A DNA stretch of 64,000 bases from positions 4,464,001 through 4,528,000 of the forward strand of contig NZ_CP119988.1 in the NCBI RefSeq assembly GCF_029338515.1. Direction: 5' to 3'. The DNA comes from Haloglomus litoreum. GTDB taxonomy: Archaea; Halobacteriota; Halobacteria; Halobacteriales; Haloarculaceae. Made by a program: the position numbers and the translations under genes. Under the pieces are notes generated by a model. The model made no database searches, was not told where the DNA came from, and worked only from the letters and a program-made list of their open reading frames with translations. Positions 10,590 through 28,678 of the stretch are shown here, piece by piece; position 1 is the first letter of the stretch, and each line of letters opens with the position of its first letter.

Positions 10590-10725
10590 TTCGCGCCGGC
10601 CGGGACGGCCCGCTCGGGGACCGGCACACCGGAGCCGGGGGAGCCGACGCCGCGTACCAGTAGCCGACGGAGCGCCGACAGCGCGGACCGCAACACGGAT
10701 GGCGCCGGTGGTCCCCCGTCCGACC

Positions 10726-11625: not shown

Positions 11626-11689
11626 CTGGCGGCCGTCCGAGGTCGGAGCCGACGAAACGCTTAGTTCTCCCCCCACCACAGGTGGACGT

Positions 11690-13381
11690 GTGAGCGATTC
11701 TGGGGGATGGGAGACCGGAGAGCGGACGACAGCGGCGCCGATCCGGGTCCTCTGTGTCACCGACGACGGGGCCGTCAGGGCCCGCGTCGAGTCGCAACTC
11801 CGTGAGGCGTTCGACGGTGCGGGCCACGGGCTCTCGTTCGCGGCCGTCACGACCGCCGAGGACGCCCTGACCGCCGTCTGGGACGCTCCGACGGACTGCG
11901 TCGTGACCGCGCAGACCCTCCCGGACGGGACCGGGGTCGAACTGACCACGGCCCTCCGCGAGCGCACGACCGCACCGGTCGTGCTCTTCACCGACGGGGG
12001 AGACGACGACCTCGCCATCGAGGCGGCCCGCGCCGGGGTGAGCGACTACCTGCCCCTCCAGCCAGGAGACGCGGACGGCCTGCTCGCACGGCGGGTCCTG
12101 GCGCTGGCGACCGACGCCCGGTCGCGTCGGGAGCGGGACGGGACACGGTCGGTCGAGCGCCAGCTCCGGGCGCTCCAGCGGACGGCCCGTGACCTCAACG
12201 TGGCCGAGTCCGTCGACGAGATCGGCGAGATCGCGGTCGGGGCTGCCGCCGACATCCTCGACCTGGAGGTGACGGGCATCTGGCGCTACGACGACCAGGA
12301 GGAGACGCTCGTGCCCGTCACGATGACGGCGACCAGCGAATCGGTGGTCGACAACCAGCCGGCCTTCGAGCGCGGCGAGGGGCTCGCGTGGCGCGCGTTC
12401 GAGACGGGAGAGGTCCAGGTGTACGACGACGTCTCGACGGTCGAGGGGCGCTACAACCCGGACACGCCTATCGGGAGCGAGATCATCGTCCCCCTCGGGG
12501 AGCAGGGCATCCTCGTCACCGGATCCACATCGTCGCAGGAGTTCTCCGGGCGCGACGTCGACCTGTTCCGCGTCCTCGGGGCGAGCGTGGAGGCGGCGAT
12601 GATCCGGGCCCGGCGCGAGGCCGAACTCCGCCGGCAGAACGAGCGCCTCGACGAGTTCGCCAGCGTCGTCAGCCACGACCTCCGGAACCCGCTGTCGGTC
12701 GCGGAGGGGTTCCTCGACCTGGCCCGCGACTCCGGCGACCCGGCGGACTTCGACCGGGTCGAGGACGCCCACGACCGGATCGGCCAGCTCGTCGACGACC
12801 TCCTGACGCTGGCCCGCGGCGGGAGTACGGTCGAGGAGCCGTCGACTGTCGATCTCGGCAGGGTCGCACGCGACGCCTGGGAGTACGTCGACACCGGGGG
12901 TGCCACCCTGACCAGGGTCGACGACCTCCCCACGGTCCAGGGCGACGGGAGCCGGCTCGTCCAGCTGTTCGAGAACCTCTTCCGGAACAGCGTGGAACAC
13001 AGTTCCACGGGCAGTCGGCCACGGGCCGACGACAGTGTCGAACATGGTTCGACAGGCAGCCGGACGGAGTCCGGCGACAGCGTGGAACACAGTTCCACGG
13101 GCAGTCGGCCACGGGCCGACGACGGCGACGTGACCGTCACCGTCGGCCCGCTCGACGGACGCGAGGGGTTCTTCGTGGCCGACGACGGCCCGGGTATCGA
13201 CCCCGAGCACCGTGACGACGTGTTCGAGCACGGCGTCAGCTTCACCGACGGCGGGACCGGCTTCGGGCTCTCCATCGTCGAGGAGATCGCCGATGCCCAC
13301 GGCTGGCAGGTGGCGATCACCGACTCCCCGGACGGCGGCGCCCGCTTCGAGTTCGAGACGGGACCGAGACGGAGCCCGTAG
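11690..13381 (+). CDS. Histidine kinase with pseudo-receiver and GAF domains
   Basis: 563 residues from a GTG start. Domains: receiver-like fold (about 18-145), GAF (about 165-310), HisKA dimerisation helix with phospho-acceptor His near 329 (VVSHDLRNPLSVA), and HATPase with N box (FENLFRNSVEH, about 426), G1 (DDGPGIDP, about 500) and G2 (GTGFGLSIVEE). The receiver segment reads CVVTAQTLPDGTG, with alanine where the phospho-accepting aspartate would be expected, so it is probably a pseudo-receiver. Directly after the N box is a 45-residue insertion of three near-identical 15-residue repeats, SVEHSSTGSRPRADD type. No membrane segment: a cytoplasmic sensor without an adjacent response regulator, which is common in haloarchaea. 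Confidence 0.92.
   Translation: MSDSGGWETGERTTAAPIRVLCVTDDGAVRARVESQLREAFDGAGHGLSFAAVTTAEDALTAVWDAPTDCVVTAQTLPDGTGVELTTALRERTTAPVVLFTDGGDDDLAIEAARAGVSDYLPLQPGDADGLLARRVLALATDARSRRERDGTRSVERQLRALQRTARDLNVAESVDEIGEIAVGAAADILDLEVTGIWRYDDQEETLVPVTMTATSESVVDNQPAFERGEGLAWRAFETGEVQVYDDVSTVEGRYNPDTPIGSEIIVPLGEQGILVTGSTSSQEFSGRDVDLFRVLGASVEAAMIRARREAELRRQNERLDEFASVVSHDLRNPLSVAEGFLDLARDSGDPADFDRVEDAHDRIGQLVDDLLTLARGGSTVEEPSTVDLGRVARDAWEYVDTGGATLTRVDDLPTVQGDGSRLVQLFENLFRNSVEHSSTGSRPRADDSVEHGSTGSRTESGDSVEHSSTGSRPRADDGDVTVTVGPLDGREGFFVADDGPGIDPEHRDDVFEHGVSFTDGGTGFGLSIVEEIADAHGWQVAITDSPDGGARFEFETGPRRSP
12992..13120 (+). repeat. Six in-frame 17-base triloop hairpins inside kinase ATPase domain
   Basis: Six perfect inverted repeats, each a 7-base stem and 3-base loop, at 12992-13008 (GTGGAACACAGTTCCAC), 13014-13030 (GTCGGCCACGGGCCGAC), 13037-13053 (GTCGAACATGGTTCGAC), 13059-13075 (GCCGGACGGAGTCCGGC), 13082-13098 (as the first) and 13104-13120 (as the second). 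Start-to-start spacing alternates 22 and 23 bases, so the two-hairpin unit is 45 bases and stays in frame. Units one and three are identical; the middle one differs in sequence but keeps all stem pairings. Confidence 0.9.
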
Positions 13382-13412
13382 CCGACGACGTACGATAGAC
13401 CGACCGCCAGCC

Positions 13413-13448
13413 GTACCCCCAACCTGACTGTTTGGTGTTTCTACAAAC
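13413..13448 (+). repeat. Left inverted repeat near island edge
   Basis: This 36-base segment and 25399-25432 are imperfect inverted copies. Both contain GTACCCC, GTTTGG and TTTCTACAAAC in the same order and spacing, about 29 identical positions of 36 with two single-base gaps. It lies just after the kinase stop codon, where base composition drops. A chance or coding origin of the similarity is possible. Bases 13449-13626 up to the transposase gene show no gene and no clear insertion-sequence terminus. Confidence 0.4.
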
Positions 13449-13626
13449 GAATCAAGGGGGTCAACGGCGACTCAGGGGACTGACGAGATCGTGAGAACGA
13501 AACTGGAGATTGAACTACCGGATTGATTACTATTTGACGGCGAATCAGTCAGAATTGGGTGAAATCAGCGCTCAGAAAAGACAACTGTCGCTCAGGAGAA
13601 TGAGTTAACGCGGAGAGAACCGTCGG

Positions 13627-15408
13627 TCAGTCGGGTGGTTCGAACAGGCAGAACGCGACCAGCTCAATCAACTCACCTGCAAGGATCGGCGGGTGTTCAC
13701 CGAGATCGACATCCACCGCGTCCCGTAGGATGAAGTTCGCCATCCGCCAGACGTTGTACAGTAACGTTCCAATCACGAAGTACAGGAACCGAATCCGGTA
13801 ATCCTTCGACGCCGACGTCGGTAGGAAGTGCTTCTTGATGGTCTTGTACTCGTTCTCGATCTCCATCCGCTGACTGTACTGGCCGAGCAGCGCTTCCGCG
13901 CGGTGATGATCGACGTGCTCGTTGATCGTGAACACTGCGTACTTGTCTCCATCCTTCTTTGACGGCGTGTACACGTACGTCATGTTGTGTTCACGACCGT
14001 CGAATGTCTGGGAACCATGCACGATTCGACTGTCGTACACCTCGTGCTCCTGGATCTCGTCAATGTGGTCCTTGTCAACCTTCGCGCGCGCTGGCTTCCC
14101 GAGCACATACAACTGCTCGCGGCGGTCGATAACGTCGCGTGTTTCGAGGCTACTGAACCCGCGGTCAAGGAACACCTTGCTAATGTCCACGTGCCGGGAC
14201 GCCTGCTCTAACAAACTCTCAACGATGTCAGCACGAGACGTTCGCTCAACATCCAATCCCATCTCTTTTTCCCACTTCCGCTGATCGCGTACCGGTTCCA
14301 CACCAAGTACAATCGGCGTGTTCTCCGCGATGATCGTGATAGTGGCGAACTTGTACCCTCGCTCATCGCTATCCTTGAGCCCGGAAACCAAATCTGGGTG
14401 CTCAGGGTCCAACAACTTCTCTTTCCCATCGATGGTCACTTTGATGGGAGTCTTGTCGGGCTTGCGAGCCGTCCTCTCGGACATGAACGGCGAGGCATAG
14501 AAATTCCACGCGGTGATGTCAATCGCCGCGTGAACCGGCTCAGTAAACCCAGCCTCGGCGTAGTACTCATCGGTGAGCTCGTCCAGGATGTTCTCAACGC
14601 CAGCGTGGAACGGCTCCAGCACTTCGTCACGGATCCGCTTCCACTCTGGCTCCTGCTTCCCTGTCACGAATTCGTCGAACGTGAGCTGGGATTCCGGCTT
14701 AGCGACCTTCTTCATCGTACGGTTATGCGAGGAACCGTGCGGCACGGTCTCCCGCTCGCTGAGTCGGGCGAACCGTCGTGATGCGGTTGTAGTCCCAGCG
14801 CGGGACATGTTCAGGTAGCCTTGCCGCTCGAAGTACGCTTCCAGCGGGTACTTCGCGTTACTGGCACGATCCGCGCTGAACTCACTGAATCCAAGGTCAG
14901 TCGCGCGCTTCACCGCATCCATAATCTCCGCTTCACTGACCCGGTCATGCTGTACATCTTCCGGATTAAGAGCTGGTTCGTTCGTCCGGATCACATCGTG
15001 CTCGCTACAAACCGTTCGAATGACTTCAGCGGCGTCTCGTAGAAGTTTCCGCTCTTCTGGGGCGAACCGATTGCGCTTGTTGTGACTGATGATCTGCTGT
15101 GAAATCGGCCGGTCGAAGCCGAGACGCAGATACACGTACGCAGCACCTTGCAACCGACGCGCGAGTTCCGACTGATTCAACTCACGCGCGTACTTGTAGA
15201 GGAACAACCGCACCATCGGTTCCAGATCAAACTTCGCACGCCCGGGTTCCTCGTACCCATTGAACCACTCGTCACCGATTTCGAGGTTCGTGATGATCCG
15301 AGTGATGTGGTCGTGGATGTGGCACAAGTCCTCTGTCTGCTCTTCGATAGAGCTCAGGATTTCATCACGGTGGTCCCGGTCGTCGGTAGTCGTCACCGAC
15401 ACCACCAC
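13627..15408 (-). CDS. DDE transposase, large IS4-like type
   Basis: 593 residues from a GTG start. An N-terminal region with a DUF772-like dimerisation/DNA-binding pattern (LEPMVRLFLYKYARELNQSE; LRLGFDRPISQQ) is followed by an RNase H-fold catalytic part. Candidate catalytic acids are in HAAIDITAWN (first Asp, about 295), KVFLDRGFSS (second Asp, about 420) and QRMEIENEYKTIKKHFLP (Glu, about 525). The C-terminal FLYFVIGTLLYNVWRMANF helix is typical. It is intact and so perhaps active. I could not identify terminal inverted repeats with confidence. Codon use is less GC-rich than in the flanking host genes. Confidence 0.88.
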   Translation of the reverse strand: MVVSVTTTDDRDHRDEILSSIEEQTEDLCHIHDHITRIITNLEIGDEWFNGYEEPGRAKFDLEPMVRLFLYKYARELNQSELARRLQGAAYVYLRLGFDRPISQQIISHNKRNRFAPEERKLLRDAAEVIRTVCSEHDVIRTNEPALNPEDVQHDRVSEAEIMDAVKRATDLGFSEFSADRASNAKYPLEAYFERQGYLNMSRAGTTTASRRFARLSERETVPHGSSHNRTMKKVAKPESQLTFDEFVTGKQEPEWKRIRDEVLEPFHAGVENILDELTDEYYAEAGFTEPVHAAIDITAWNFYASPFMSERTARKPDKTPIKVTIDGKEKLLDPEHPDLVSGLKDSDERGYKFATITIIAENTPIVLGVEPVRDQRKWEKEMGLDVERTSRADIVESLLEQASRHVDISKVFLDRGFSSLETRDVIDRREQLYVLGKPARAKVDKDHIDEIQEHEVYDSRIVHGSQTFDGREHNMTYVYTPSKKDGDKYAVFTINEHVDHHRAEALLGQYSQRMEIENEYKTIKKHFLPTSASKDYRIRFLYFVIGTLLYNVWRMANFILRDAVDVDLGEHPPILAGELIELVAFCLFEPPD

Positions 15409-15713
15409 CGTAACTCACGTCCCTGGTGAGTAACACCGAAGCAAACAGACATCCACGCGTGGCTCCCGAGCCGCATCCGGAATGGAACTGAACCGGGCAG
15501 GGAACCGAGCATGGCTTGCCAAAGTGTTACTTTGAATCGAAGCATATTTTCGTGGGTGCGATTTCCGAATTGCCAAATCAGAGTACGTACTACGGGGTTT
15601 TAGCCGAGATCCGTACAGCAGAATCCGGAAACGATTGGCGTACAGAACAAAGTGTGGTTTGATTCGCACAGACCTTCGGTTTCTAAGAGGGTCTACGCGA
15701 AACGATGGAGTGA
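15409..15713. other. Intergenic stretch between transposase and winged-helix gene
   Basis: About 305 bases of mixed composition with no supported gene. It should contain the transposase promoter (reading left) and that of the winged-helix gene (reading right). A GTGAGTAACACC stretch near 15425 and AAAGTGTTACTTTG near 15530 share GTAACAC/GTGTTAC and could be part of an inverted repeat, but I see no end structure with a target duplication. Confidence 0.4.
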
Positions 15714-16250
15714 ATGCCCGACTCTGAGTCGATTAGTGATTTCCTTCAGAAACGCGGTGCACTCGGGATTCTCACCCTTCTCTCAATGGAAGACGGGCAA
15801 CGATTCAGTGACTTAGACGAGCAACTCACGATCAGCTCATCAACCCTCACTCGTCGTCTCACTGAAGCACGTGGCCTCGGTCTTGTCGTTCCTGGGATGA
15901 ACCCCAAAGAAACCAGTGTCAACAACGAGTACCGAATCACAACGCGTGGAAAGCGTGTCGCCCGACGGATGGAGAACCAAGGCCTCAGCCATGCTGTTCG
16001 GACGATCATCGATTACCAGCAGGACGTAGAAAGTGAGCTACCTGATCTACTCAACTGGGTCGAAGTTCACAACGAGGAATTAGCGCGACTGGATGACCAG
16101 ACACCGTATCAAGACCCGTTTGGGGAGTCTGTGGTTGACACCGGGGATGAACCGGAATACGACGATGAGTTCATGATTGAGGAGGATTTCGGCAGAGTTG
16201 AGCAGTGGGGGACTGACCCGGATGAGGAAGAGGACAAGACGGACGAATAG
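15714..16250 (+). CDS. Winged-helix DNA-binding protein of mobile island
   Basis: 178 residues. Residues about 8-95 form a winged helix of HxlR/MarR type: FLQKRGALGILTLLSMEDGQ, recognition helix ISSSTLTRRLTEARGLGLV and wing NNEYRITTRGKRVARRM. The C-terminal third is strongly acidic (DEEEDKTDE at the end). Related proteins are common on haloarchaeal plasmids and integrated elements next to replication genes, where they are probably copy-number or transcription repressors. It converges with the nuclease gene at 16279, with only 28 bases between stop codons. Confidence 0.82.
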   Translation: MPDSESISDFLQKRGALGILTLLSMEDGQRFSDLDEQLTISSSTLTRRLTEARGLGLVVPGMNPKETSVNNEYRITTRGKRVARRMENQGLSHAVRTIIDYQQDVESELPDLLNWVEVHNEELARLDDQTPYQDPFGESVVDTGDEPEYDDEFMIEEDFGRVEQWGTDPDEEEDKTDE

Positions 16251-16278
16251 CTTCTATGCGTAAGGCCTGTGATTGGTT

Positions 16279-17412
16279 TCACTCAGGATCTACATTGAGT
16301 TGCGAACCCGCTTCGGGGCCACTCAAAGTGACGAGCTCCCCCGCTTCGGCACACTCGGGGCAGAAGGGGAGATCGTCTACGTTGCCGTCCCAATCAACGC
16401 CATCCCAGTCGAATGAAGAACCACACGCAGAACACCCCCAATCGTAGACTCCGAATTTTTCCACGAGATCCGGGAAGTGATGGGCGAGTGTCGGTGTAAG
16501 ACGCGCATTATGGTCCTCGTGCGCTTCTAAATACTCTTGGAGGTTCTGCCGGTCGTACTTATCGAACACCGGCAGCAGACCGTCGCAGCCTGTGTCTATG
16601 TATGGGGTTTCGGCTTCACCGCAGCGATGCTTGAACGAACAGTAATTGCACTCCCAGTCTCGTTCAGGCGTAGCTGGTGGTAGTTCACTGGATTGTTCAT
16701 ACTCTGTCTGCGTCTGCATCCAGTCTACAACGTGTTCCCAGAACTTCGGTTCGAACCGGACATGAAATGATTCGATGTTGAGTGTTTTCCGACTGCCGTA
16801 CACGACCAGTCCCTTGGTGATTGAGTGGTCGTACTCCTGGTCGAGGGCGTATAGGTATGCGTGCAACTGCGCACGGTGATGCGGTTTCGGTTCCGAGAGG
16901 TGGTCGAGCGATGTTGTGGTTTTTATTTCTGTTACGAACAGTGGTTCTGCATCAGCAGTCACGATTGCAGGGTCAGTTGATCCACGTAGACTGAGTTCTG
17001 TCCCACCAATGGCGATCTCAGTATCTATCCAGAGTGAATTCGCCACGTAGGTGTTCGGGGTCGTCATAGCCTGGAGGAATGGTACAACGACCTGTTTCTC
17101 GAATTCTGAACCAATCCAGAATAGACCTTCTGGTGGTGTGCCCTCTCGCGGTGCGTTCTTTCGCGCGTAACTGGTTTTCCGGTGACACTGCAGGAGCTTG
17201 CTCGGCGTGTGCTGCTCAGGATCTTTAGGTGGGCTTGGCCCGTTGAAATACGCTTGTCCCTCCAAGATGTTGTTCTGGAACTGCTGTTCACTGTACCACT
17301 CGTTGAACGCCCGGTTCGTTATCCGATCAAGCATGACTTCGTGGGCGTCGGTGTCAGAATTCGGGAATGGGGAATCTCTCCCGAGAGGCTCGTCTTTGGA
17401 TGGATCGCTCAT
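16279..17412 (-). CDS. Cas4-like Fe-S PD-(D/E)XK nuclease with extra zinc ribbon
   Basis: 377 residues. The nuclease core has the RecB-type order: GSEFEKQVVVPFL (about 100), GSTDPAIV (Asp, about 145), FVTEIKTTT (E-x-K, about 160) and HHRAQLHAYLYAL (Gln, about 180). Four cysteines placed as in Cas4/AddB Fe-S nucleases are present: one early (LLQCHRK, about 75) and three late (CNYCSFKHRC, about 258). After the core comes an unusual C-terminal ribbon with CSAC and CPEC knuckles (about 332-365). It probably resects or processes DNA ends during replication or recombination of the island. No cas genes or CRISPR repeats are near. It follows the Orc1/Cdc6 gene by 88 bases on the same strand. Start ATG at 17410-17412. 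Confidence 0.85.
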   Translation of the reverse strand: MSDPSKDEPLGRDSPFPNSDTDAHEVMLDRITNRAFNEWYSEQQFQNNILEGQAYFNGPSPPKDPEQHTPSKLLQCHRKTSYARKNAPREGTPPEGLFWIGSEFEKQVVVPFLQAMTTPNTYVANSLWIDTEIAIGGTELSLRGSTDPAIVTADAEPLFVTEIKTTTSLDHLSEPKPHHRAQLHAYLYALDQEYDHSITKGLVVYGSRKTLNIESFHVRFEPKFWEHVVDWMQTQTEYEQSSELPPATPERDWECNYCSFKHRCGEAETPYIDTGCDGLLPVFDKYDRQNLQEYLEAHEDHNARLTPTLAHHFPDLVEKFGVYDWGCSACGSSFDWDGVDWDGNVDDLPFCPECAEAGELVTLSGPEAGSQLNVDPE

Positions 17413-17500
17413 CACAACGGGTGTGAGAATACGGGGAACAATAGGGAGCCGCGTGTCGTTTCCGAAAAACCATCGCGCCGAGCAGACGAAAAGTGTAGAA

Positions 17501-18505
17501 TCACACTCGTGTCCGGTAAATTCGGGCCTTCGTGTTCCCTTCAGCGGAGATGAGGTTGTAGTGCTCTAATTTGGACAGGTAGTTCCGAACCATACGTTTC
17601 GTCTTCGGGTCGGTTGCCCGGTCACAGTACGTGCTGTAGAGTTGCTGCGGTGCGATTTCACCGTTCTCGGTGATGATGTTGTACAGGAGTTTCTGGTGGG
17701 GCGTGAGGCGATCTACTGTTCGCTGCTTGATTTCCGATTTCACTTCCGGAGTTTTTTCCTGAACGATGTCTGGCGTGATTTTGTCAACAGGTGCGTCCTT
17801 TGCTTTCCGTGCTGCTCGCCGCAGGATGCCGATAGCAACACGGGCGTCTCCGCCAGCGTTCGCGGCGATCAACTCCAGACCGGACGTATCAATCACTTCG
17901 TTGGTGAGTCCCCACCTGACTCGGTCACTGAGAATAGCAACGAGTTCGTTTTCATGGTATGACCGGAAGTGAATGCGTTCACAGTCGGTGAGGCGGCTGT
18001 TCAACCGGTCATCCATCGATACGAAAAGCCCATCCTCATCATTGCTGATGAGGATCATCGTGAGGTGGGGGATACGGTACAGATCGTACAGCAGCGACTT
18101 ATCCTCCAACTGGTCCACTTCGTCTAAAATAACGACGTACGGCGTGTCATTACTATCTTTGAGGCGTTCAAGAAGGACGTCTTTCGGTGTTGACTGTCGA
18201 TGGACATCGACGGTACGACCGATGCCATCCAACAGTCTGTACAGGGTTTTGAAGCGGCTATGATCCTCCCAGCAGTTCACATACTGGTAGTTCAGGTTAA
18301 CCACTTCCTCCCGCAGTTGCTCCACCAGGAACTGTGCGATGCAGGTTTTCCCTGCACCAGATGGGCCGTGGAGGAGCGCCGGGTCAGCTCGTTGTCCCCG
18401 AGTGATTGGGTTGAGAACGCTGGAGAGGTAGTTGACCTCAGCATCTCTGTGTTGTACCTCCCTGGGAATGAATTCTGGTTGCAGGACGCGCGCGTCCGTA
18501 ATCAT
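17501..18505 (-). CDS. Orc1/Cdc6-family replication initiator
   Basis: 334 residues. AAA+ module with Walker A GPSGAGKT (about 52-59), Walker B VVILDEVDQLED (about 128-137), sensor-1 LTMILISND (about 153) and sensor-2 GGDARVAIGILRRAA (about 220); a C-terminal winged helix (TPHQKLLYNIITENGEIAPQQLY) binds origin DNA. Plasmid and island copies of this type are diverged from the chromosomal orc1 and start replication of their own element. The start ATG at 18503-18505 precedes RVLQPEFIPREVQHR, the normal family opening. The upstream DNA has the features of an origin. Confidence 0.93.
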   Translation of the reverse strand: MITDARVLQPEFIPREVQHRDAEVNYLSSVLNPITRGQRADPALLHGPSGAGKTCIAQFLVEQLREEVVNLNYQYVNCWEDHSRFKTLYRLLDGIGRTVDVHRQSTPKDVLLERLKDSNDTPYVVILDEVDQLEDKSLLYDLYRIPHLTMILISNDEDGLFVSMDDRLNSRLTDCERIHFRSYHENELVAILSDRVRWGLTNEVIDTSGLELIAANAGGDARVAIGILRRAARKAKDAPVDKITPDIVQEKTPEVKSEIKQRTVDRLTPHQKLLYNIITENGEIAPQQLYSTYCDRATDPKTKRMVRNYLSKLEHYNLISAEGNTKARIYRTRV

Positions 18506-18900
18506 ACGACGTCGACGCAACTCTGTAGTTGTAAATGGAAGGGTGTAGTTTCCGAAACTTCCGAATTCCGATTTATTTTTGGAACCTACTGAACCTGAAT
18601 ACTTGTAATGGGCCTTGTTTAGACGCAGTACAGAACGCTCACTTCGGCCGTTGTCTGAACAATGAAATCGGATAGTGAGGCACCCACAGACTGGATCTCT
18701 TCACCCGATATGGCCACAGACCTGCGTCTTCAGAAGCGTCTAAACAAGGCCCTTGTAATGGATTTGGAATCCATTCTACATTGAGCTTAGCATATTAGTT
18801 CAATTTATAATCATATAAGATAATAAAACATCAGCAATAAACCTGCAACTATGAATCAAGATTTTACAGAAGGCACTTTCTCGCCACCTTCTGTATTTAC
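18506..18900. other. Candidate replication origin upstream of orc1/cdc6
   Basis: The region between 18506 and 19008 has no gene. Next to the initiator start are three TTCCGA repeats (18550, 18559, 18566) within GTTTCCGAAACTTCCG, and the same GTTTCCGAAA recurs at 17457 just after the initiator gene. About 18776-18840 is very AT-rich and could be an unwinding element. A perfect inverted repeat AATGGATT/AATCCATT lies at 18757-18775 and a hairpin ACAGAAGG/CCTTCTGT at 18866-18894. Repeats beside an AT-rich stretch next to orc1/cdc6 are the standard layout of haloarchaeal origins. A MITE has inserted within it. Confidence 0.5.
18611..18751. mobile_element. 141-base MITE with 16-base TIRs and 9-base target duplication
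   Basis: Perfect terminal inverted repeats GGCCTTGTTTAGACGC at 18611-18626 and GCGTCTAAACAAGGCC at 18736-18751 enclose 109 bases with no open frame. The element is flanked by an exact 9-base direct repeat CTTGTAATG at 18602-18610 and 18752-18760. Inverted ends plus target duplication show a transposition event mobilised in trans by an insertion sequence not present in this window. The ends do not match anything recognisable around the transposase at 13627. Confidence 0.82.
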
Positions 18901-18909
18901 AACATCAGT

Positions 18910-18930
18910 GGCTTTGTTGAAACCCTATAG
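18910..18930. repeat. Possible insertion-sequence end remnant
   Basis: The stretch GGCTTTGTTGAAACCCTATA resembles terminal inverted repeats I remember from haloarchaeal insertion sequences, but no second end and no transposase are found nearby. It may be a leftover end or a chance match. The 80 bases to the next gene (18931-19008) show nothing else. Confidence 0.25.
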
Positions 18931-19008
18931 TGCTGATAGATCTCGGAAGCGGTGCTGAATCGACGAGCATTTCGTTCACGTAAATAGAGTTTCGGGCAGA
19001 TGCTCGCG

Positions 19009-19773
19009 TTATGAAACGACGAGCGTTATTCCAACGCTCGCGCTACCAAGTAGGGTCACAGCAATCATTTTAGCAATCTGCCTTGCACCAGCTATCCACG
19101 TGACTGTGACGTATACAGATAGCTGTACCACGGTCGCTATGACGATTCCAATTCGGGTCGTGCTTGCTGAAAGAGATAAATCAACGGAATTGACGATGGC
19201 GAGAATGACCGCGACGAGCCCACCAATCACTAATGCTGATTGAATCCGAAACGGAGTATTCAATTCGTTCGTTGGTGGTCCACGATTTCGAGCACGAAAC
19301 CAGATCCCCCCTGTAACGAGGAACCCAACCCCAGCCATTGCCGCGAATGGAATCACGAGAGATTCGGCGATTGAAGGACTGACGATGGCAACCACGACGA
19401 AATTCCGTAAGAACAGCATCGTCGATGCGATTGCGGCTGCGACCGTGTAGGCAAGATCGAACTCCGGATGACGCCGGTACTGTTCAGTGAGTGATGTGAT
19501 TGTCATTCCAGGGGACACGGCACCCCCCAGTGCTCCGGTGAACCCGATTGCAGTCCCCGGATCGACTATCTTGGATAGGAGGTACCCGAGAAAACTCAGT
19601 CCTGCGACGAACACCACGACTAACCAGACTTGTCGCGGGTTCACTCCGAGCAGTACATCGAGGCGCTCGTCAGGTAAAACCAGCAAGACGAGGAGAAGAA
19701 CAAGAAATTCAGCTGTCGCTCTGAGGTCTTCCGAATCGATTCGGTCTCTCATCTCGTTCCAGCGAGTGCTCAT
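19009..19773 (-). CDS. DUF4010-only membrane protein
   Basis: 254 residues with about eight hydrophobic segments. The blocks LLVLPDERLDVLLGVNPRQVWLVVVF, GLSFLGYLLSKI and GFTGALGGAVSPGMTITSL follow the DUF4010 consensus. DUF4010 normally forms the C-terminal half of MgtC-like proteins of about 420 residues; the MgtC half is absent here. Its ATG overlaps the stop of the preceding phosphotransferase-like gene (ATGA at 19770-19773), so they are co-translated. A transport or export role is only inferred from the membrane topology. Confidence 0.78.
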   Translation of the reverse strand: MSTRWNEMRDRIDSEDLRATAEFLVLLLVLLVLPDERLDVLLGVNPRQVWLVVVFVAGLSFLGYLLSKIVDPGTAIGFTGALGGAVSPGMTITSLTEQYRRHPEFDLAYTVAAAIASTMLFLRNFVVVAIVSPSIAESLVIPFAAMAGVGFLVTGGIWFRARNRGPPTNELNTPFRIQSALVIGGLVAVILAIVNSVDLSLSASTTRIGIVIATVVQLSVYVTVTWIAGARQIAKMIAVTLLGSASVGITLVVS

Positions 19774-22526
19774 CGCTTACTCTCTGAGTCAAGATCTCCC
19801 GTCGGTTGGTCCGTTCGGTCAAGTAACTCGACGGTTCCGCGCTCGCCGTCGATTCGAATTCGTTCACCCGTTCGAATTTCGTCGGTCACGTTCGCCACCG
19901 ACACCACGGCTGGTATACCGTATTCACGTGCGACCAGTGCGCCGTGTGTCATCCGGCCACCAACCTCCATCACTAACCCAGTCGCATCCTGAAACAAGGG
20001 TGTCCATCCAACGTCCGTGGACGGGGCGACGAGAATCTCACCCTTTGAAATCGACTGTTCAGACGGATCGTGCATCACCTTGGCAACTCCTTCGACCAAA
20101 CCGGACGAGACCGGCGTTCCCGTGAGCACGTGTTCTGAGGGAGACCCATTTCTCTTGCCTGTCGGTGTCTCACCCTCGCTCGTAAGAATAGGTGGTGCAG
20201 TCATTGACGCATATCGCTGGTGAGTATCACGTCGTTCGGAGATGTCTACATCAAGAGATGACTCATCATCAAGTGAGTCCAATAATTCCTCTTTCCGGAG
20301 GTACCAGACGTCCTCTGGGTGTTCCAATACTCCTGCCTTAGCGAGTTCAGTTCCCACATCGGAGACACAATCGTGTATGGCCGCGAGAAACCGCGCAGCT
20401 CCGTGCTTGTGGTGCTCCCGGAGTTGAATTCCTCCCCGGTACACTCGGATCAACTGCCCCACAATCGGCCGTTTCACGGGACCTAAGAGTCCTCGACTAG
20501 CGCGATTCTCAAGTTCCTCGGCGGCTTCACCTGCATCGTGTTTCAGTTGATCCAAGTGTTTGCGGTGTTCTCCCTGTTCACTCCTCCGAAGATTACTTCG
20601 AATCGTCTGAAAGAGTATTGAGGGGTCGTCTCGCCAGCGTGGTCGGCTCAGATCTATTTCGTTACTCGCCCGGAAGCCAAAGTCGTCAAGGAACGTCTCG
20701 AAAGCCGCCACAAATTGGGTTCCGCCATCGACATCTTCGATCTCTGAGAGTGTGGATTTGTCTCGAATCGCCGCTTCAACGTCAGGATGTTCCCGAGCAA
20801 TATCTGCGAGGTCACCGAGCCGCTGATTGATTTCGGTGGCTATCTCCTCGTCGAATCCGCGGCTGAGTGCTGTGAGTTCGTCGTCTGCGTTTGGATACAG
20901 CCGTTCCAGTACATTACCCGCCACGACGCCGGCCAGGAGATACGGCATCGACTTGCTTCCTATCGAAGCGACCAGCGTACCGAGTTCAGTTTCCTCGAAC
21001 GCCACTCGAATACGCTCGCTCCGGGACTCGGGTTGAGTGACACGAGTCGCCATCTTCTCTCCCTCTCGCTCAATACGAGCACGGACGCGTTCGGCGTCGG
21101 GTGGCCCCAAAAGGAACGGCTTGAGGAGACGGGCCAACAGATGCGGTGTGTTTGAGACAGCGAGTGGGAGGAGGCGTCGGCTCACGCGACCGAGCGTTCG
21201 GAGCCGGTTCGTGAGCGTGTCTTGGAAAAATGTATCTTCGTGTCGGTCGAGAATATCTTCGAGTGCACACGTCGCCGGTTCGCTCATCGAATCGAGGACG
21301 CGAAGAGCAATCTTTCGTGTTACTTCCCCCCGTAGAAGGGGGGTGAGGTCCACATACACTCGGTGTCCGGCTTCGACTGCGAACGACTGGTCAGATTCGG
21401 GGGACAGGAACCGAGCAACAGATCTGTTTACCGTTTCTCGCATCCAATCGACGACCAGTGGTGGGAGTGCCTCGGCCATCGCTTGCTGGTGACCGATACT
21501 GAAGTAGACGTGCAGCTGGTCATCGGCTGGCGCTGGTGATGGGAGCGGATACAAAGAGGTGATCGGACGTGACTGGAGCAGCATGAACTCGCCATCGACG
21601 AGTGCCCATTCGATGTCCTGTGGGCTGCCGAGTAGTTCTTCGACATCTTCCCCGAGCTCTACGAGTTTCCGTAGTTGGGCATCGGTCAACGCCCGGCTCT
21701 CACGGTGCGCAGTAGATACCTCCTCCAGCGATGGCTCATCCTGGCCGTCCTTCCCCGAGCGGAGCGCGAGGCGCTTTTCGCCGACTTCGTATTCGAGGAC
21801 TTCCCCAGTTCGGCGGTCAACACGTGCGTTGTCGGGGGATACGTCTCCGGCGACCACCGTATCGCCAAGACCATAGTTAGCGTCAATCGATGCAATGTGA
21901 CGATTACCGGACACAGGATCAGCGGTGAAGAGTACTCCGGCAACCTCTGGTTCGACCATCGTCTGTACGACTACCGCCATCGCCACCTCCGAGTGTGAAA
22001 CGTCGTTCCGAAGCCGGTACGATACTGCCCGTTCCGTGAAGAGGCTCGCTATGCACTCCTGAACGTACTCGGGGGCGTTTTCCTGGTCGATTCCGAGGAA
22101 CGTCTCGTGCATTCCGGCGAATGACGCCGTCGGCAAATCTTCGGCCGTCGCACTCGACCGAACGGCGTACGAGTCGGCACCGAGCGTGTCGAGTGCGTTC
22201 GAGATGGCCCGTTGGACGTGTTCGGGGATTTCCGTCTCCCGGATCTTCGTTCTGAGTTCCTCACTCTTGGATACAATTTCGTCTGTGTTCTCCGGTTTGA
22301 GGGCCTCCAACGATTCGATTTCGGCTTGGATGTTAGACTCTTCAAAGAGAACCTGAGAAGCGGCAGTCGTCACACACACTCCAGTGGGGATTGGCAGGCC
22401 TGCTTCGACTAAGCGAGCGAGATTTGCACCCTTTCCGCCAGTCAAATTGAGATCTGCAGCTCCTTCTTCGTCCAACGAGAGGACAAACCGGCGGTCACGC
22501 ACCTCGGCCAACTCGGTCCTTGGCAT
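19770..22526 (-). CDS. Rifampicin phosphotransferase-like PEP-synthase-fold enzyme
   Basis: 918 residues in three parts. The N-terminal ATP-grasp part has NLTGGKGANLARL (about 28-40), YAVRSSATAEDLPTASFAG (about 118) and AGVLFTADPVSGNRHI (about 193). The middle part contains blocks typical of rifampicin phosphotransferases and not of PEP synthase: SRPITSLYPLP (about 320), LHVYFSIGHQQAM, GHRVYVDLTPLL and SNEIDLSRPRWRDDP (about 620). The C-terminal swivelling domain has VGGRMTHGALVAREYGIPAVV with the transfer histidine at residue 861. Known relatives use ATP to phosphorylate the C21 hydroxyl of rifamycins, releasing AMP and phosphate. The substrate here is unknown; archaeal RNA polymerase is not normally rifampicin-sensitive. 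Followed by overlapping DUF4010 gene. Confidence 0.85.
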   Translation of the reverse strand: MPRTELAEVRDRRFVLSLDEEGAADLNLTGGKGANLARLVEAGLPIPTGVCVTTAASQVLFEESNIQAEIESLEALKPENTDEIVSKSEELRTKIRETEIPEHVQRAISNALDTLGADSYAVRSSATAEDLPTASFAGMHETFLGIDQENAPEYVQECIASLFTERAVSYRLRNDVSHSEVAMAVVVQTMVEPEVAGVLFTADPVSGNRHIASIDANYGLGDTVVAGDVSPDNARVDRRTGEVLEYEVGEKRLALRSGKDGQDEPSLEEVSTAHRESRALTDAQLRKLVELGEDVEELLGSPQDIEWALVDGEFMLLQSRPITSLYPLPSPAPADDQLHVYFSIGHQQAMAEALPPLVVDWMRETVNRSVARFLSPESDQSFAVEAGHRVYVDLTPLLRGEVTRKIALRVLDSMSEPATCALEDILDRHEDTFFQDTLTNRLRTLGRVSRRLLPLAVSNTPHLLARLLKPFLLGPPDAERVRARIEREGEKMATRVTQPESRSERIRVAFEETELGTLVASIGSKSMPYLLAGVVAGNVLERLYPNADDELTALSRGFDEEIATEINQRLGDLADIAREHPDVEAAIRDKSTLSEIEDVDGGTQFVAAFETFLDDFGFRASNEIDLSRPRWRDDPSILFQTIRSNLRRSEQGEHRKHLDQLKHDAGEAAEELENRASRGLLGPVKRPIVGQLIRVYRGGIQLREHHKHGAARFLAAIHDCVSDVGTELAKAGVLEHPEDVWYLRKEELLDSLDDESSLDVDISERRDTHQRYASMTAPPILTSEGETPTGKRNGSPSEHVLTGTPVSSGLVEGVAKVMHDPSEQSISKGEILVAPSTDVGWTPLFQDATGLVMEVGGRMTHGALVAREYGIPAVVSVANVTDEIRTGERIRIDGERGTVELLDRTDQPTGDLDSESKR

Positions 22527-22633
22527 TTAGTTGTCCCTCCCGATTAGGTCACATCGGTCCGCAATTACGTAGAATCCCATAGTGCTATATTGAGCAGCTT
22601 TGGAGTTAGAGTGCTGCCTAGCATCAATGGCTC

Positions 22634-22645
22634 CTTATATATAGA
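22634..22645 (-). promoter_or_regulatory. TATA-like box before phosphotransferase-like gene
   Basis: On the reverse strand this reads CTATATATAAGG, a strong TATA-like element about 110 bases upstream of the start at 22526. A second one, CAATATAG, lies nearer at about 22585-22592. Which is used cannot be decided from sequence. Both fall in the AT-rich gap between the HTH_10 regulator and the phosphotransferase-like gene. Confidence 0.45.
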
Positions 22646-22686
22646 AAATCGGAGGGTGTCATACTTCCTGTATTTGTGGATGTTAC

Positions 22687-23337
22687 TCAGGATTCGAGAG
22701 CACCGAAGATTCTCGCTTCGATCTTCTGGAGATGTTCACTTACTGTCGGTACTGAGAGTTCAAGTTGTTCAGCGATGTCTCCGTGGGTCGCGTGTCGGGG
22801 AACGTCGTAGTACCCGCTTGCCAGGGCAACATCCAGTATTTCTCGCTGCCGGTCGGTTAGTAAGTCTGTCAGCGATTTCGGATCCTCAATATAGGGACCG
22901 ATTCGTTCGACCGATACCTCGATCTCTGATGGGATTTCGTCCAATATACCCATAATTTCGCTGTTAGTCTCTCCGACTATCGTGATTTTGAGCTGTCCCT
23001 CTTCCGTCGCCTCAATAGGGAAGTCAAAGAACACACCGTGCTCACGACGGAGCTCAAGGAGTCGCCTAATGGACGGAGGCGGCCGAGCATGCACAAACAC
23101 GAGTCCGGCTTTCGCGTCCTGTTCAGAGATACTGAACCCGAGAACGTCCTGTTCATCCGAGAGAATTGCACGTGCCTGCGCTAGATTCCCCCGAATCCGG
23201 CCGAGGAGAACAAACGTCCCATCTTCGAGGAGAGTGAGGTTGAAGATGCGCTCTCGTTGCACTCTCGATTCGCTGGTAAACAGGTGGTCCACAGGATGAT
23301 TTGCTGGGGGCGACACGAGAACCGTCACCGCTCTCAT
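22687..23337 (-). CDS. HTH_10 (bacterio-opsin-activator type) regulator
   Basis: 216 residues. The C-terminal 55 residues are the HTH_10 domain: LTDRQREILDVALASGYYDVPRHATHGDIAEQLELSVPTVSEHL, with recognition helix SVPTVSEHLQKIE. The N-terminal 150 residues are a ligand-sensing region (LLEDGTFVLLGRIRGN; GQLKITIVGET). It has the same length and clear similarity to the regulator at 40563-41213. It lies between the phosphotransferase-like gene (same strand, 160 bases downstream) and the monooxygenase (divergent), so it probably controls both. The start at 23335-23337 is the MRAVTVLV methionine, matching the paralogue's MRYATVVI. Confidence 0.88.
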   Translation of the reverse strand: MRAVTVLVSPPANHPVDHLFTSESRVQRERIFNLTLLEDGTFVLLGRIRGNLAQARAILSDEQDVLGFSISEQDAKAGLVFVHARPPPSIRRLLELRREHGVFFDFPIEATEEGQLKITIVGETNSEIMGILDEIPSEIEVSVERIGPYIEDPKSLTDLLTDRQREILDVALASGYYDVPRHATHGDIAEQLELSVPTVSEHLQKIEARIFGALES

Positions 23338-23390
23338 CGGAGCATCACCTGTAGTTTGCTGGAGTGAAGAAATCTGATTTCCGGGTTTTG

Positions 23391-23399
23391 CATTTATAC
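23391..23399. promoter_or_regulatory. Overlapping divergent TATA element
   Basis: CATTTATAC on the top strand reads GTATAAATG on the bottom. A TATA box here would place a rightward start near 23420, before the monooxygenase ATG at 23453, and a leftward start near 23370, before the regulator ATG at 23337. One element may therefore serve both divergent genes. This also argues against the upstream ATG at 23408 as the monooxygenase start. Confidence 0.45.
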
Positions 23400-23452
23400 T
23401 ACCATTTATGCTAGGCGAACCCTTAGTCTTCACGTATACCCATCTAACATTG

Positions 23453-25189
23453 ATGAGCTCCGATCCTCTCCCCAAAGACGCCGTTGAGAGCCACACAGAT
23501 GTTCTCATTGTCGGTGCCGGGCCGACAGGACTAGCGCTGGCAATTGAACTCTCCCGACGGGACATAGAGTACCGACTCCTTGAGAAGAACGATTCGACGG
23601 TGTCGAGTTCCCGTGCACTCGGCATTAATCCACGGACCCTTCAGGCATTCGAGGATATGGGCCTCCTCGATGGGATTCTGGCGAAGGGGTTCAGACTCAC
23701 TGGCCAGCGTCTCTACCGTGGTGACGAACAACTCGTCCGCCTGAGCACTGACAGCGTCCACAACGATACAGAGTATCCGTATCTCTGGATACTTCCACAG
23801 TACGATACCGAGGATGCACTTCTCGGTCGGTTGACCGAACTCGGTGGTGCGGTCGAATTCGAAACCGAGGTCGCCGAGTTCGACCAAGACGAAGATTCGG
23901 TGACTGCTCGGCTCACCCACACCGACGATGGTAACCACCGCGAGGAGATCGTCCATGCGTCGTACCTCGTCGGCTGTGATGGTGGCAGTAGCATGGTTCG
24001 AAAGACGCTCGGGCTGGACTTCTCCGGGGAAACGCGGTCAGAGACATTCTTCCTCGCGGATATCACTGTAACGAGTGACTGGCCCTCGCGGGAGGCACTT
24101 ACGTGGTTTCACGAGGACGGTATCATCGCCGTGCTTCCCATCGATGGGGAGGACACCTGGCGTGTGTTCGCCGAGATCTCGGAGGTTCCGGAGGACGAAC
24201 GCCCGGTACCGACACCGGAAGGTGTGCAGACGTTACTTGCCGGACGGACCGCTGATGAGCGAGCGGAAGTTCACGACATCATCTGGTCGTCGGACTACAC
24301 AGTCAATCAGCGAATGGTGGACCAGTACCGAAGCGGCAACGCATTTCTTGCGGGGGATGCCGCACACGTACACAGCCCGTTCGGTGCGATGGGTATGAAT
24401 ACAGGCATCCAGGACGCCTACAATCTTGGGTGGAAGCTCGCACTCGTCGTTTCGGGTGCTGCCGACGCGACGTTGCTCGATACGTACGAGGAGGAGCGAC
24501 GACCGGTCGCCGAAGAGGTTCTCGGAGGGACAGGTCCATCAACGGGACTAATTAGCTCTACAAACCCCGTGATTGAAGCACTTCGTGAACACGTTCTTAG
24601 CCCGCTTCTTAAACAGGAGCGTGTTCAGGCACGGTTGCTGAGTGCAACGACACAACTCGGAATCAACTACCGAAGAAGCTCGCTCTCGCAGACTTCGGAC
24701 GTGTCTCCCCTGGATGATTTACTCGATGGCGGCAATCTTCGGGAACTCGTCGGACGGGAGTGGCAGACCTGGCGTGCACCAAAGGCGGGCGACCGGGTAC
24801 TTGACGGTCCATGTGAGGGGAGAGGTGGAACCGATATTTCCCTCTACGACGAACTGCATTGTGAAAGTGGCTTCTCGCTGCTGCTATTCACGGGTAAACA
24901 TGAAGCGGCTGATGAAGTAGGCGTGTCGGTTGCTCAAGCGGTAGCTGATCAAGTCGGTGACGTTGTTCGGCCCTACCGTATCGTTCTGGACAAACTACCT
25001 AGCGACGAGAGAGATGTTGAGACATTGATTGATAAGGACGGGACACTTCACGAACGGTACGGAGCGCTCACACCGGTATTCTTTGTCGTCCGTCCAGACG
25101 ACTACATCGGATTCCGTGGTGCAGTATCTAACACAGTCCCACTCGATGAGTACTTCAATGAGGTAATTGGCCTTCACGTAAACGAGTAG
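23453..25189 (+). CDS. Class A FAD-dependent aromatic monooxygenase
   Basis: 578 residues. FAD-binding motifs in the group A order: DVLIVGAGPTGLALA (GxGxxG, about 14), LVGCDGGSSMVRKTLG (DG motif, about 172) and FLAGDAAHVHSPFGAMGMNTG (GD motif, about 298). The C-terminal 150 residues have the thioredoxin-like fold of phenol hydroxylase relatives (GFSLLLFTGKHEAAD). Such enzymes hydroxylate phenols, salicylates, tetracyclines or rifamycins using NAD(P)H and oxygen. Short motif comparison places it in the PheA/MhpA/Rox group; the exact substrate cannot be told. It is divergent from the HTH_10 regulator. ATG at 23453 rather than 23408 fits the promoter position. Confidence 0.9.
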   Translation: MSSDPLPKDAVESHTDVLIVGAGPTGLALAIELSRRDIEYRLLEKNDSTVSSSRALGINPRTLQAFEDMGLLDGILAKGFRLTGQRLYRGDEQLVRLSTDSVHNDTEYPYLWILPQYDTEDALLGRLTELGGAVEFETEVAEFDQDEDSVTARLTHTDDGNHREEIVHASYLVGCDGGSSMVRKTLGLDFSGETRSETFFLADITVTSDWPSREALTWFHEDGIIAVLPIDGEDTWRVFAEISEVPEDERPVPTPEGVQTLLAGRTADERAEVHDIIWSSDYTVNQRMVDQYRSGNAFLAGDAAHVHSPFGAMGMNTGIQDAYNLGWKLALVVSGAADATLLDTYEEERRPVAEEVLGGTGPSTGLISSTNPVIEALREHVLSPLLKQERVQARLLSATTQLGINYRRSSLSQTSDVSPLDDLLDGGNLRELVGREWQTWRAPKAGDRVLDGPCEGRGGTDISLYDELHCESGFSLLLFTGKHEAADEVGVSVAQAVADQVGDVVRPYRIVLDKLPSDERDVETLIDKDGTLHERYGALTPVFFVVRPDDYIGFRGAVSNTVPLDEYFNEVIGLHVNE

Positions 25190-25828
25190 ACCACTGTGAA
25201 TCGTCTGCGAGTCCGATTGAGGTAGATCGGTGGGATTCACAGGGAGGCAAATCCGTCAAGAAGTTATAGAGCTGACTTGGTCGATTTTCCGCTGCAACAG
25301 CGAGACGGGTTGACCGAATTCGTTCCCGCTCTGAAGATAATGGACTGCTAAATCACGACTTTGCGTCTCACCTCTTGGATAATGTTGCCGATTAGGTGGT
25401 TTGTAGAAATCCAAACTGCCAACTTGGGGTACCGCTCGCGGAGGTTCTGTATCGCGCCTATCGGTTTATCACCGGAGCTCGCCCGAGCGCCCGAAGACAG
25501 CACGACGGGAGAGAACCATCCGAACAGCAGCAGCATTCAACTCGAAAAATCCCCATAGATGAAATATATACTGAATTTTATGCGAGATGGAGAGATAACG
25601 AGCTGAACCCACCAGAGAGCCGGACGACGCTCACGTCCGGCTATCGGTGGGAACGCTGGTCGTCAGCGACGCGGTCCGTGCGATGCACGGTCCGCGAATC
25701 CAGACGCGCCCCGACATCGGGCTCCCGCAGGCCCACGAGGTTCGCACGGAGCGCCGGGAACAGGCGGGCAGGCCGCACGGCAGGCCCCCCACCGCAGGAC
25801 GTTTGCCGCCGGCCCCGGAGGGAGGGAC
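25190..25828. other. Right edge of island: degenerate intergenic DNA
   Basis: No complete gene in about 640 bases. A hairpin-like TGTGAATC/GATTCACA pair spans about 25194-25240 just after the monooxygenase stop and may act as terminator. A short reverse-strand open frame at 25348-25536 contains IQNLRERYPKLAVWISTNHL, which could be the remnant of a longer protein. The right inverted repeat lies at 25399-25432. AT-rich AATATATACTGAATTTTATG lies near 25562, followed by a perfect stem AGCCGGACG/CGTCCGGCT at 25618-25642. From about 25650 the DNA returns to host GC content. Confidence 0.5.
25399..25432 (-). repeat. Right inverted repeat near island edge
   Basis: The reverse complement carries GTACCCC, GTTTGG and TTTCTACAAAC in the same order as 13413-13448. 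Together the two copies enclose about 12 kb of low-GC DNA. Similarity may continue weakly outward (CGATA and CCGC blocks in both). No short direct repeat flanking the pair was found. Confidence 0.4.
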
Positions 25829-27557: not shown

Positions 27558-27772
27558 CAGCCCGGCAGTGACCGGGCCCGGATTCCCCGAAGACGGCCGC
27601 GAGCGTCCCGCTCGGTCGAGGACCGCCGAACGGAGCGCCGGCCGCGCGGGGATGATTCTGTATAGTGACATACAGTTTATCGTCGGAGGATGGGCGCGGA
27701 AGCGTGTCCGGGGCAACCGCCGGGACGGGGCCGAGAGGCGGCGCTTTTGTCGGTCGGCGCGCTACGGCCGCT

Positions 27773-28678
27773 ATGGTCCGGAACGTGGCCGGTGAGATGG
27801 CGGAACTCGAGCCGGAGGACTTCCACCTGCTGTCCGGCCTGGAGCACGGGATGCGGTTCTCGCGCTGGGTCGCGGAGGGGAAGCTCCCGGGGTTCTCGGG
27901 GCTCGACTCGGAGAACGTCGACTACCGGCTGGACCGCTGTGAGCGCCGCGGCCTCGTCGAGCGCAAGACCATCCAGTACACCGGCTACCGGCTCACGTTC
28001 GAGGGGTACGACGCGCTGGCGCTGCACACCTTCGCCGAGCGCGACACCATCGACGGGGTCGGCGGCCCGCTGGGCGTGGGCAAGGAGTCGGACGTCTACG
28101 AGGTCCGCAGCTTCCAGCCGCTCGCGCTGAAGTACCACCGCGAGGGGTACACCAACTTCCGCGAGGTGGACAAGGAGCGTGACTACACCAGCGACAAGGA
28201 GCACATCTCCTGGTTCTACACCGCGCGCAAGGCCGCCGAGCGGGAGTACGAGGCCCTCGAGACGCTCTACCCCGACGTCCGCGTGCCGCGCCCGGTCGAC
28301 CAGAACCGCCACGCCATCGTGATGGCGAAGATGGACGGCGTGGAGCTGTCACGCGCGGGACTGGAGGACGGGCAGGTCGTGCCCGTACTCGACCTCGTCC
28401 TCGACGAGATGACCGGCGCGTACCGCGAGGGGTTCGTCCACGCCGACATGTCCGAGTACAACGTCTTCGTCGGGAGCGACGGCGTGACGGTGTTCGACTG
28501 GCCCCAGGCCGTCCCGACCGACCACGAGAACGCCGACGAACTGCTGGCGCGGGACGTGCGCAACGTGGTGGGCTACTTCACCCGGAAGTACCCGCGCCGG
28601 ACGCCCGAGGTGGACGAGTCCGCACTGGCCGAGGCCATCCGGGAGGACGACTTCGAGACGGTCCGCGAGTTCGCCTGA
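27773..28678 (+). CDS. rio2: RIO2-family serine protein kinase
   Basis: 301 residues. An N-terminal winged helix (residues about 8-85, FHLLSGLEHGMRFSRWV ... YTGYRLTFEGYDALAL) is unique to Rio2. The atypical kinase fold has the nucleotide loop GVGKESDVYEV (about 100), a lysine in LALKYHREG, catalytic loop FVHADMSEYNVFV (about 223) and metal-binding VFDWPQ (about 242). Rio2 acts in maturation of the small ribosomal subunit. The ATG at 27773 is chosen because the family begins near VAGEMAELEPEDF. A palindrome CTGTAT/ATACAG lies at 27658-27675 upstream. Confidence 0.94.
   Translation: MVRNVAGEMAELEPEDFHLLSGLEHGMRFSRWVAEGKLPGFSGLDSENVDYRLDRCERRGLVERKTIQYTGYRLTFEGYDALALHTFAERDTIDGVGGPLGVGKESDVYEVRSFQPLALKYHREGYTNFREVDKERDYTSDKEHISWFYTARKAAEREYEALETLYPDVRVPRPVDQNRHAIVMAKMDGVELSRAGLEDGQVVPVLDLVLDEMTGAYREGFVHADMSEYNVFVGSDGVTVFDWPQAVPTDHENADELLARDVRNVVGYFTRKYPRRTPEVDESALAEAIREDDFETVREFA

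Follow-up and report, generated by a model that had tools for sequence, protein, structure and literature searches.

An RPH-type dikinase gene paired with a standalone DUF4010 gene on a mobile island of Haloglomus litoreum

We analysed a locus of the haloarchaeon Haloglomus litoreum that encodes a 918-amino-acid protein related to rifampicin phosphotransferases (RPH), a DUF4010 membrane protein, an HTH_10 regulator and a flavin-dependent aromatic monooxygenase (FMO). It lies in a 64-kb stretch of contig NZ_CP119988.1, hereafter the window, and all coordinates are those of the whole window, 1 being its first letter. We show that the 918-residue protein is a full-length RPH-type dikinase, not a phosphoenolpyruvate (PEP) synthase, and that its pairing with DUF4010 is real, the standalone DUF4010 protein being a dedicated partner of the RPH-like enzyme. 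With an intact active site and a rebuilt drug pocket, the enzyme probably has a substrate other than rifampicin. We favour the reading, whose chances we put as even, that the dikinase is the core of an inducible cassette for the detoxification of small molecules.

The dikinase and its DUF4010 partner

Firstly, we established the family of the 918-residue protein. Pfam finds PPDK_N (residues 27-324) and a C-terminal PEP-utilizers domain (827-897), and the protein runs from an ATP-grasp domain (~12-324) through a RIF-BD-like substrate domain (~335-795) to a His swivel domain (~797-903) that carries H861, which is the domain order of the RPH-type dikinase superfamily according to both Pfam and the full-length model match to 5hv1. 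A phmmer comparison aligns it with RPH-Lm over its whole length (458 bits); PEP synthases match only piecewise. An AlphaFold2 model made from a 32-sequence alignment (predicted local distance difference test, pLDDT, 88.3; predicted template-modelling score, pTM, 0.87) superposes on the RPH-Lm structure 5hv1 with template-modelling scores of 0.82/0.89 (Z 38.4, root mean square deviation 3.3 over 831 residues; model residues 12-903). In a 78-row tree, 41 haloarchaeal RPH-like sequences, the window protein included, form one clade (SH-aLRT 100) whose sister is a bacterial clade of 15 with RPH-Lm nested inside, and haloarchaeal PEP synthases are placed far outside the RPH-like clades. The protein scores 355.2 bits against the PEP synthase model TIGR01418, below its cut-off of 739.75; Pfam finds no match in it to PEP-utilizers_C, the C-terminal TIM barrel, and its His domain is C-terminal, not central. 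A true PEP synthase (779-amino-acid frame) is encoded elsewhere in the same genome. A PEP synthase identity is thus ruled out by the domain order, the TIGR01418 score, the tree and the separate genuine enzyme. The top-scoring NCBIfam model, NF004878, bears the name 'phosphoenolpyruvate synthase' (800 bits, below its cut-off of 945), and this name is not to be read as the function of the protein. A preliminary description of the locus, made from the sequence alone, had preferred RPH to PEP synthase, and Pfam, phmmer, the tree and the superposition all agree with it; the placement in the PEP synthase clade that it had named as contrary evidence is not seen in the tree. Elsewhere, two or three divergent RPH-like genes stand in tandem arrays (L085:5258-13386 in Halorubrum sp. 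Atlit-26R, and also L040 and L044) that look as if the substrate range were diversifying. Viral contigs searched with the RPH-like query gave partial, distant matches only.

Secondly, using the RPH-Lm residues that Stogios et al. list (PMC4844700), we mapped the active site. The ATP site is kept, with K32 (Lys22 of RPH-Lm), R123 (Arg117), T142, E306 (Glu297), Q318 (Gln309) and R320 (Arg311), and so are the phosphate-transfer residues Q347, Q348 (Gln337), R703 (Arg666), E704 (Glu667), K707 (Lys670) and H861 (His825), the last having been correctly predicted as the transfer His in the preliminary description. The transfer-site His, Arg and Lys are present in 41/41 haloarchaeal rows, and the Glu in all except a subgroup with Asp; this alignment argues that the haloarchaeal RPH-like clade as a whole would still be catalytic. 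The drug pocket, in contrast, has been rebuilt. Seven of the 11 rifampicin contacts are changed (Y351, P356, A357, M359, L478, F479 and M673 of RPH-Lm to M, N, R, A, I, G and A, respectively) and only the equivalents of Q336, T354, V368 and L387 are kept, the exact column of some pocket residues being uncertain at 24% identity in the substrate domain. T523 of RPH-Lm, which supports Glu667, is replaced by A. Identity to RPH-Lm is 33.5% overall (40% in the ATP-grasp, 54% in the swivel and 24% in the substrate domain), compared with more than 42% for members of the validated RPH clade A (PMC4844700), outside which the tree places the window protein, and the NCBIfam rifamycin phosphotransferase model NF041857 gives 644.6 bits, below its cut-off of 999. 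The window protein therefore shares with RPH-Lm (5hv1, 5fbs; PMC4844700) the three-domain order, the fold and the residues of the ATP and phosphate-transfer sites, and differs from it in overall identity, drug contacts, clade and DUF4010 pairing.

PspR of Haloferax mediterranei, a haloarchaeal relative, made no phospho-rifampicin (PMC10948481). Given the retained catalytic residues, the loss of most rifampicin contacts, the position outside clade A and the inactivity of PspR on rifampicin, the window protein is probably an RPH-like enzyme acting on another substrate. The preliminary description had expected as much from the insensitivity of archaeal RNA polymerase to rifampicin; the expectation is supported, but the argument is not sufficient, since most haloarchaea are killed by rifampicin via a detergent effect on the membrane (PMC5566976), so that target grounds alone do not dispose of this drug. 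The most likely substrate class, by analogy, would be an aromatic or amphiphilic hydroxyl compound, because related kinases act on phenolic or macrocyclic hydroxyls: RPH phosphorylates a hydroxyl of the macrocyclic rifampicin (PMC4844700), the RPH-related two-component kinases HpeHI, CreHI and PpsAB act on phenols and start their catabolism (PMC12167813), and a zearalenone phosphotransferase is reported as an RPH-related kinase with a phenolic/macrocyclic hydroxyl substrate (PMC11768653).

Thirdly, we characterized the DUF4010 gene, whose start overlaps the end of the dikinase gene by 4 nt on the same strand. The 254-residue product scores 94.1 bits against DUF4010 (PF13194; gathering cut-off 30), and Pfam detects no MgtC domain in it. 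Across 391 haloarchaeal genomes, 7/7 standalone DUF4010 genes found are adjoined by an RPH-like gene (one of these copies, in G231b, is frameshifted), and the pairing reaches RPH-like proteins only 44-46% identical to that of the window (G231b and the second copy of G224), on several tree branches. An eighth candidate, in G029 (49% match, no RPH-like gene nearby), proved to be a full-length MgtC-DUF4010 protein and was excluded. Full-length MgtC-DUF4010 (MgtC/SapB) proteins share the DUF4010 domain with the standalone form at 32-40% identity; aligned with them, the standalone form lacks both the MgtC part and an internal segment of ~33 amino acids bearing the GxSGxYATAFxSGLADVDA signature. The function of MgtC-DUF4010 proteins is therefore not to be assumed for it. 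The earlier statement that the protein keeps DUF4010 without MgtC is right as to both domains and misses the loss of the signature segment, and the export role proposed for it finds no support. We know of no transport activity of DUF4010. No DUF4010 was found at bacterial RPH-like loci and no relative of it in viral contigs; a single-sequence model was uninformative (pLDDT 51.9, too poor for a fold search). In the open-licence literature, DUF4010 was met only in an unrelated context and nothing was found on HVO_0513.

Regulator, monooxygenase and transferred block

The ORFs (open reading frames) and Pfam confirm the gene arrangement given in the preliminary description. The RPH-like and DUF4010 genes overlap, the regulator lies beside them, upstream of the RPH-like gene, and the FMO gene is divergent. 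The features are as follows.

19009..19773, minus strand: standalone DUF4010 membrane protein, 254 amino acids, ~7 hydrophobic segments by hydropathy
19770..22526, minus strand: RPH-type dikinase-like protein, 918 amino acids (Pfam, phmmer, residue mapping, structure model)
22687..23337, minus strand: HVO_0513_N + HTH_10 regulator, 216 amino acids from M97 of a 312-amino-acid ORF; 124.1 bits (cut-off 29.8) and 65.1 bits (cut-off 23.1), respectively
23398..23419, minus strand: operator-like palindrome TTCGCCTAGCATAAATGGTAGT, 12/15 positions of the consensus, followed by an A/T-rich TATA-like stretch
23453..25189, plus strand: group A FAD-dependent aromatic monooxygenase (FMO), 578 amino acids from M16 of a 593-amino-acid ORF; FAD_binding_3 307.5 bits
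18990..23433, strand not applicable: block common to the window, G224 and G210 (DUF4010, RPH-like, HTH_10, operator), from blastn
11627..25794, strand not applicable: inserted island, limits approximate, from flank spacing in sister genomes, the GC profile and the mobile-element genes inside

The regulator most likely starts at M97, because its orthologues in genomes G224 and G210 begin there. Taking as its subfamily all members of 51% identity or more (the following tier lies at ~41%), we found before 12/12 subfamily genes a palindrome, ACTGCCTAG-N7-GGTAGT, with a constant 7-nt spacer and 58-95 nt ahead of the start codon; in most of the 12 cases a TATA-like A/T-rich stretch follows. Besides the window copy, the palindrome occurs in upstream regions in L033, L034, L035, L166 and L238-L244. 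An exact 8-mer is common to 7/9 divergent upstream regions (the maximum in 500 shuffles is 3), and GCCTAG-N7-GGTAGTA has six exact matches in twelve whole genomes, every one of them just before a subfamily gene, with one-mismatch matches before three further members. Six of the palindrome-bearing regulator partnerships face an oxidoreductase gene (FMO, P450 or redoxin). The subfamily regulator of G379 faces a cytochrome P450 gene, and those of G245, G004, G234, G322 and G082 face a deiodinase/AhpC-type redoxin, assigned by Pfam for the G245 protein and by sequence likeness for the other four. Conservation shows a single regulator-operator unit, its operator being a predicted one, combined with the RPH-DUF4010 pair as well as with interchangeable oxidases. 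Elsewhere in the family, RPH-like genes adjoin TetR-type regulators instead, a type typical of small-molecule sensing. The H. litoreum genome also holds a second subfamily member (L243, G000:C1:4061589-4062233; 54% identity) with its own operator copy; downstream of it lie genes for a 302-residue hydrolase-like protein and then an ABC-transporter ATPase.

The FMO belongs to the group A FAD aromatic hydroxylases, with GxGxxG, DG and GD motifs. It has the FAD_binding_3 fold and these motifs in common with rifampin monooxygenase (5kow) and an OxyS-type polyketide oxygenase (4k2x), but reaches only 264.2 bits against the rifampin monooxygenase model NF033145 (cut-off 800) and has a longer C-terminal part with a weak phenol-hydroxylase-like match (Pfam). 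Its most likely start is M16 (23453), because the upstream start at 23408 would fall inside the conserved operator.

Neighbouring genes in other genomes were taken from a composition-filtered gene list, plain ORF clustering being swamped by antisense ORFs of GC-rich genomes. The block formed by the HTH_10, RPH-like and DUF4010 genes (4.4 kb) recurs in G224 (88.0% DNA identity) and G210 (86.6%), which belong to two families other than that of the window genome, and its ends are alike in blastn; by this comparison, the trio is a block that moved as one between three families. Omega values of 0.08-0.25 indicate purifying selection on each gene of the trio. Synonymous divergence (dS) between the window and G224/G210 is ~0.7 for the regulator (0.68 with G224) and ~0.25-0.3 for the RPH-like and DUF4010 genes (0.25 for RPH). 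Since the regulator value is far above the other two, a recombination point between the regulator and the RPH-like gene, and hence a mosaic block, is suggested. The trio is also present in G277, with the regulator divergent and the remains of an FMO and of a DoxX gene lying between regulator and kinase. Facing the regulator of G138 (57%) are DoxX and an intact FMO (48%), and no RPH-like gene was found in that genome beyond a PEP-synthase-level match. Quinone and catechol stress regulons of bacteria include members of the DoxX family. Strict conservation of a four-gene module, as the preliminary description had it, is ruled out: the regulator-RPH-DUF4010 trio is conserved and the FMO is optional, being intact beside the trio only in the window genome.

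Proposed function and alternatives

In the detoxification cassette that we favour, the regulator would act at the palindromic operator in the HTH_10/FMO intergenic region and would control both its own operon (HTH_10, RPH-like and DUF4010, presumably co-transcribed) and the divergent FMO gene, a small molecule serving as the inducer. As in RPH-Lm, the dikinase would take the beta-phosphate of ATP onto H861, swivel, and phosphorylate with it a hydroxyl group of some bulky molecule that is probably aromatic or amphiphilic, and probably not rifampicin (ATP + H2O + R-OH -> AMP + Pi + R-O-P), yielding a presumably inactive phosphate ester. The FMO, where present, may first hydroxylate the same or a related compound, and DUF4010 perhaps places the kinase where compounds enter, or handles the product. 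The RPH fold from end to end, the retained catalytic residues, the invariable pairing of standalone DUF4010, the block transfer, the oxidase neighbours and the single operator speak for this explanation. Several points weigh against it. PspR, the sole studied haloarchaeal relative, is described as a DNA-binding repressor (PMC10948481); the FMO is absent from the two closest trio copies, G224 and G210; and DUF4010 is not obligatory, the close RPH-like relatives of G231a and G351 having none adjoining. Moreover, no second operator copy within two mismatches was found between the HTH_10 and RPH-like genes, so that control of the latter presupposes read-through that begins at the HTH_10 promoter. 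More tentatively, and with the chances rather against it, the RPH-like protein and standalone DUF4010 may form a mobile archaeal two-protein chemical-defence system, in which the kinase, working at the membrane, would phosphorylate a toxin of amphiphilic or aromatic nature, the truncated DUF4010 would dock the kinase or move the phosphorylated product, and the operator of the HTH_10 switch would also control interchangeable oxidases (FMO, P450, redoxin).

The trio could also be real and the FMO incidental, brought in with the regulator from another locus by recombination and sharing no substrate with the kinase. The trio copies devoid of FMO, the G138 regulator beside an FMO without RPH and the excess of regulator over RPH dS make this a serious possibility; the four genes in the same neighbourhood of G277, albeit with FMO and DoxX decayed, and the position of the single operator between regulator and FMO keep it on the doubtful side. 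Another reading takes the enzyme for a metabolic or catabolic kinase acting not on a toxin but on a growth compound or on one of the cell's own lipids, quinones or isoprenoid alcohols. A lipid-like substrate would suit a membrane partner, the C-terminal part of the FMO is phenol-hydroxylase-like, and HpeHI, CreHI and PpsAB (PMC12167813), which share swivel-His dikinase chemistry and related domains with the window protein, initiate phenol catabolism. These relatives, however, are two separate proteins encoded in catabolic clusters, while the window has one protein on a mobile, accessory island in which ORFs and Pfam reveal no carboxylase, ring-cleavage or other catabolic gene; we consider such a role unlikely.

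We think it less probable still that the protein is, like PspR, an RPH-like protein turned DNA-binding regulator with loss of kinase function. PspR is presumably of the same kind, has an ATP-grasp, a ligand and a His domain, and its binding to the phaRP promoter was seen in electrophoretic mobility shift assays (EMSA) and chromatin immunoprecipitation (ChIP); the EMSA, however, was run at a protein:probe ratio of 250,000:1, the kinase assay used rifampicin as its only substrate, and a DUF4010 partner of PspR is not mentioned (PMC10948481). The window protein keeps every catalytic residue of both half-reactions, nearly all of which are also kept in the 41 haloarchaeal rows. No compared sequence fits the full pattern of the PspR residues F340, W360, E377, W380 and R519 in its own numbering; by PspR spacing, F342 is kept in the window protein and the tryptophans, including the pocket-filling one of most haloarchaeal rows, are out of register. 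In addition, a repressor would hardly need a membrane partner, and the locus already possesses a regulator of its own. Least probable of these readings, and in our view very improbable, is that the archaeon has here a true rifamycin phosphotransferase. The fold and active site are those of RPH, the Q336 and Q337 equivalents are retained in the window clade, rifampicin kills haloarchaea through membrane effects (PMC5566976), and clades that include Haloferacaceae and Natrialbaceae are among the candidate rifamycin inactivators of Stogios et al. (PMC4844700); the NF041857 score, the identity to RPH-Lm below that of clade A, the seven replaced contacts and the inactivity of PspR on rifampicin (PMC10948481) all stand against it.

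Haloarchaeal RPH-like proteins were already known from a published tree (PMC4844700) and from PspR (PMC10948481); the DUF4010 pairing and its truncated version, the trio that moved as a block and the operator common to the subfamily appear to be new, none having been found in the open-licence literature. An entire clade of RPH-type dikinases with intact active sites is present in haloarchaea. What the locus adds to it is a membrane partner of its own, a mobile unit whose extent is fixed, and a regulator that has a defined putative operator and stands beside oxidases of the detoxification kind, so that a reporter could be used to look directly for the inducer and, through it, for the substrate. 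DUF4010, and the archaeal handling of toxic small molecules, would also gain a functional handle.

The island and its surroundings

The preliminary description had placed the genes on a low-GC mobile island, and this proved correct. GC content is 48-60% over ~14-26 kb of the window and ~71% in the surrounding chromosome. The flanks (a gene at 10720-11626 and an esterase gene at ~25795) are 14.2 kb apart here and only ~580 and ~660 bp apart in the same-genus sister genomes G404 and G403, which identifies the island as an insertion. Three further genomes of the genus lack the RPH-DUF4010 region. Only short, weak pairs were found in a search for direct repeats flanking the island. At 13627-18520, it also carries genes for an ISH3/IS4-like DDE transposase, a winged-helix protein, a Cas4/PD-(D/E)XK-like nuclease and an Orc1/Cdc6-like protein (transposase, nuclease and Orc1/Cdc6 from Pfam), a set that recalls plasmid-derived elements. 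Just left of the low-GC segment, at 12987-13130, a 45-bp unit with internal dyads is repeated three times in tandem. A rio2 kinase gene lies near the RPH-DUF4010 module both here (27665-28678) and in G277 (L035:11557-12462); given that the two RPH-DUF4010 copies are only 59% identical, the vicinity of rio2 is possibly an insertion hotspot.

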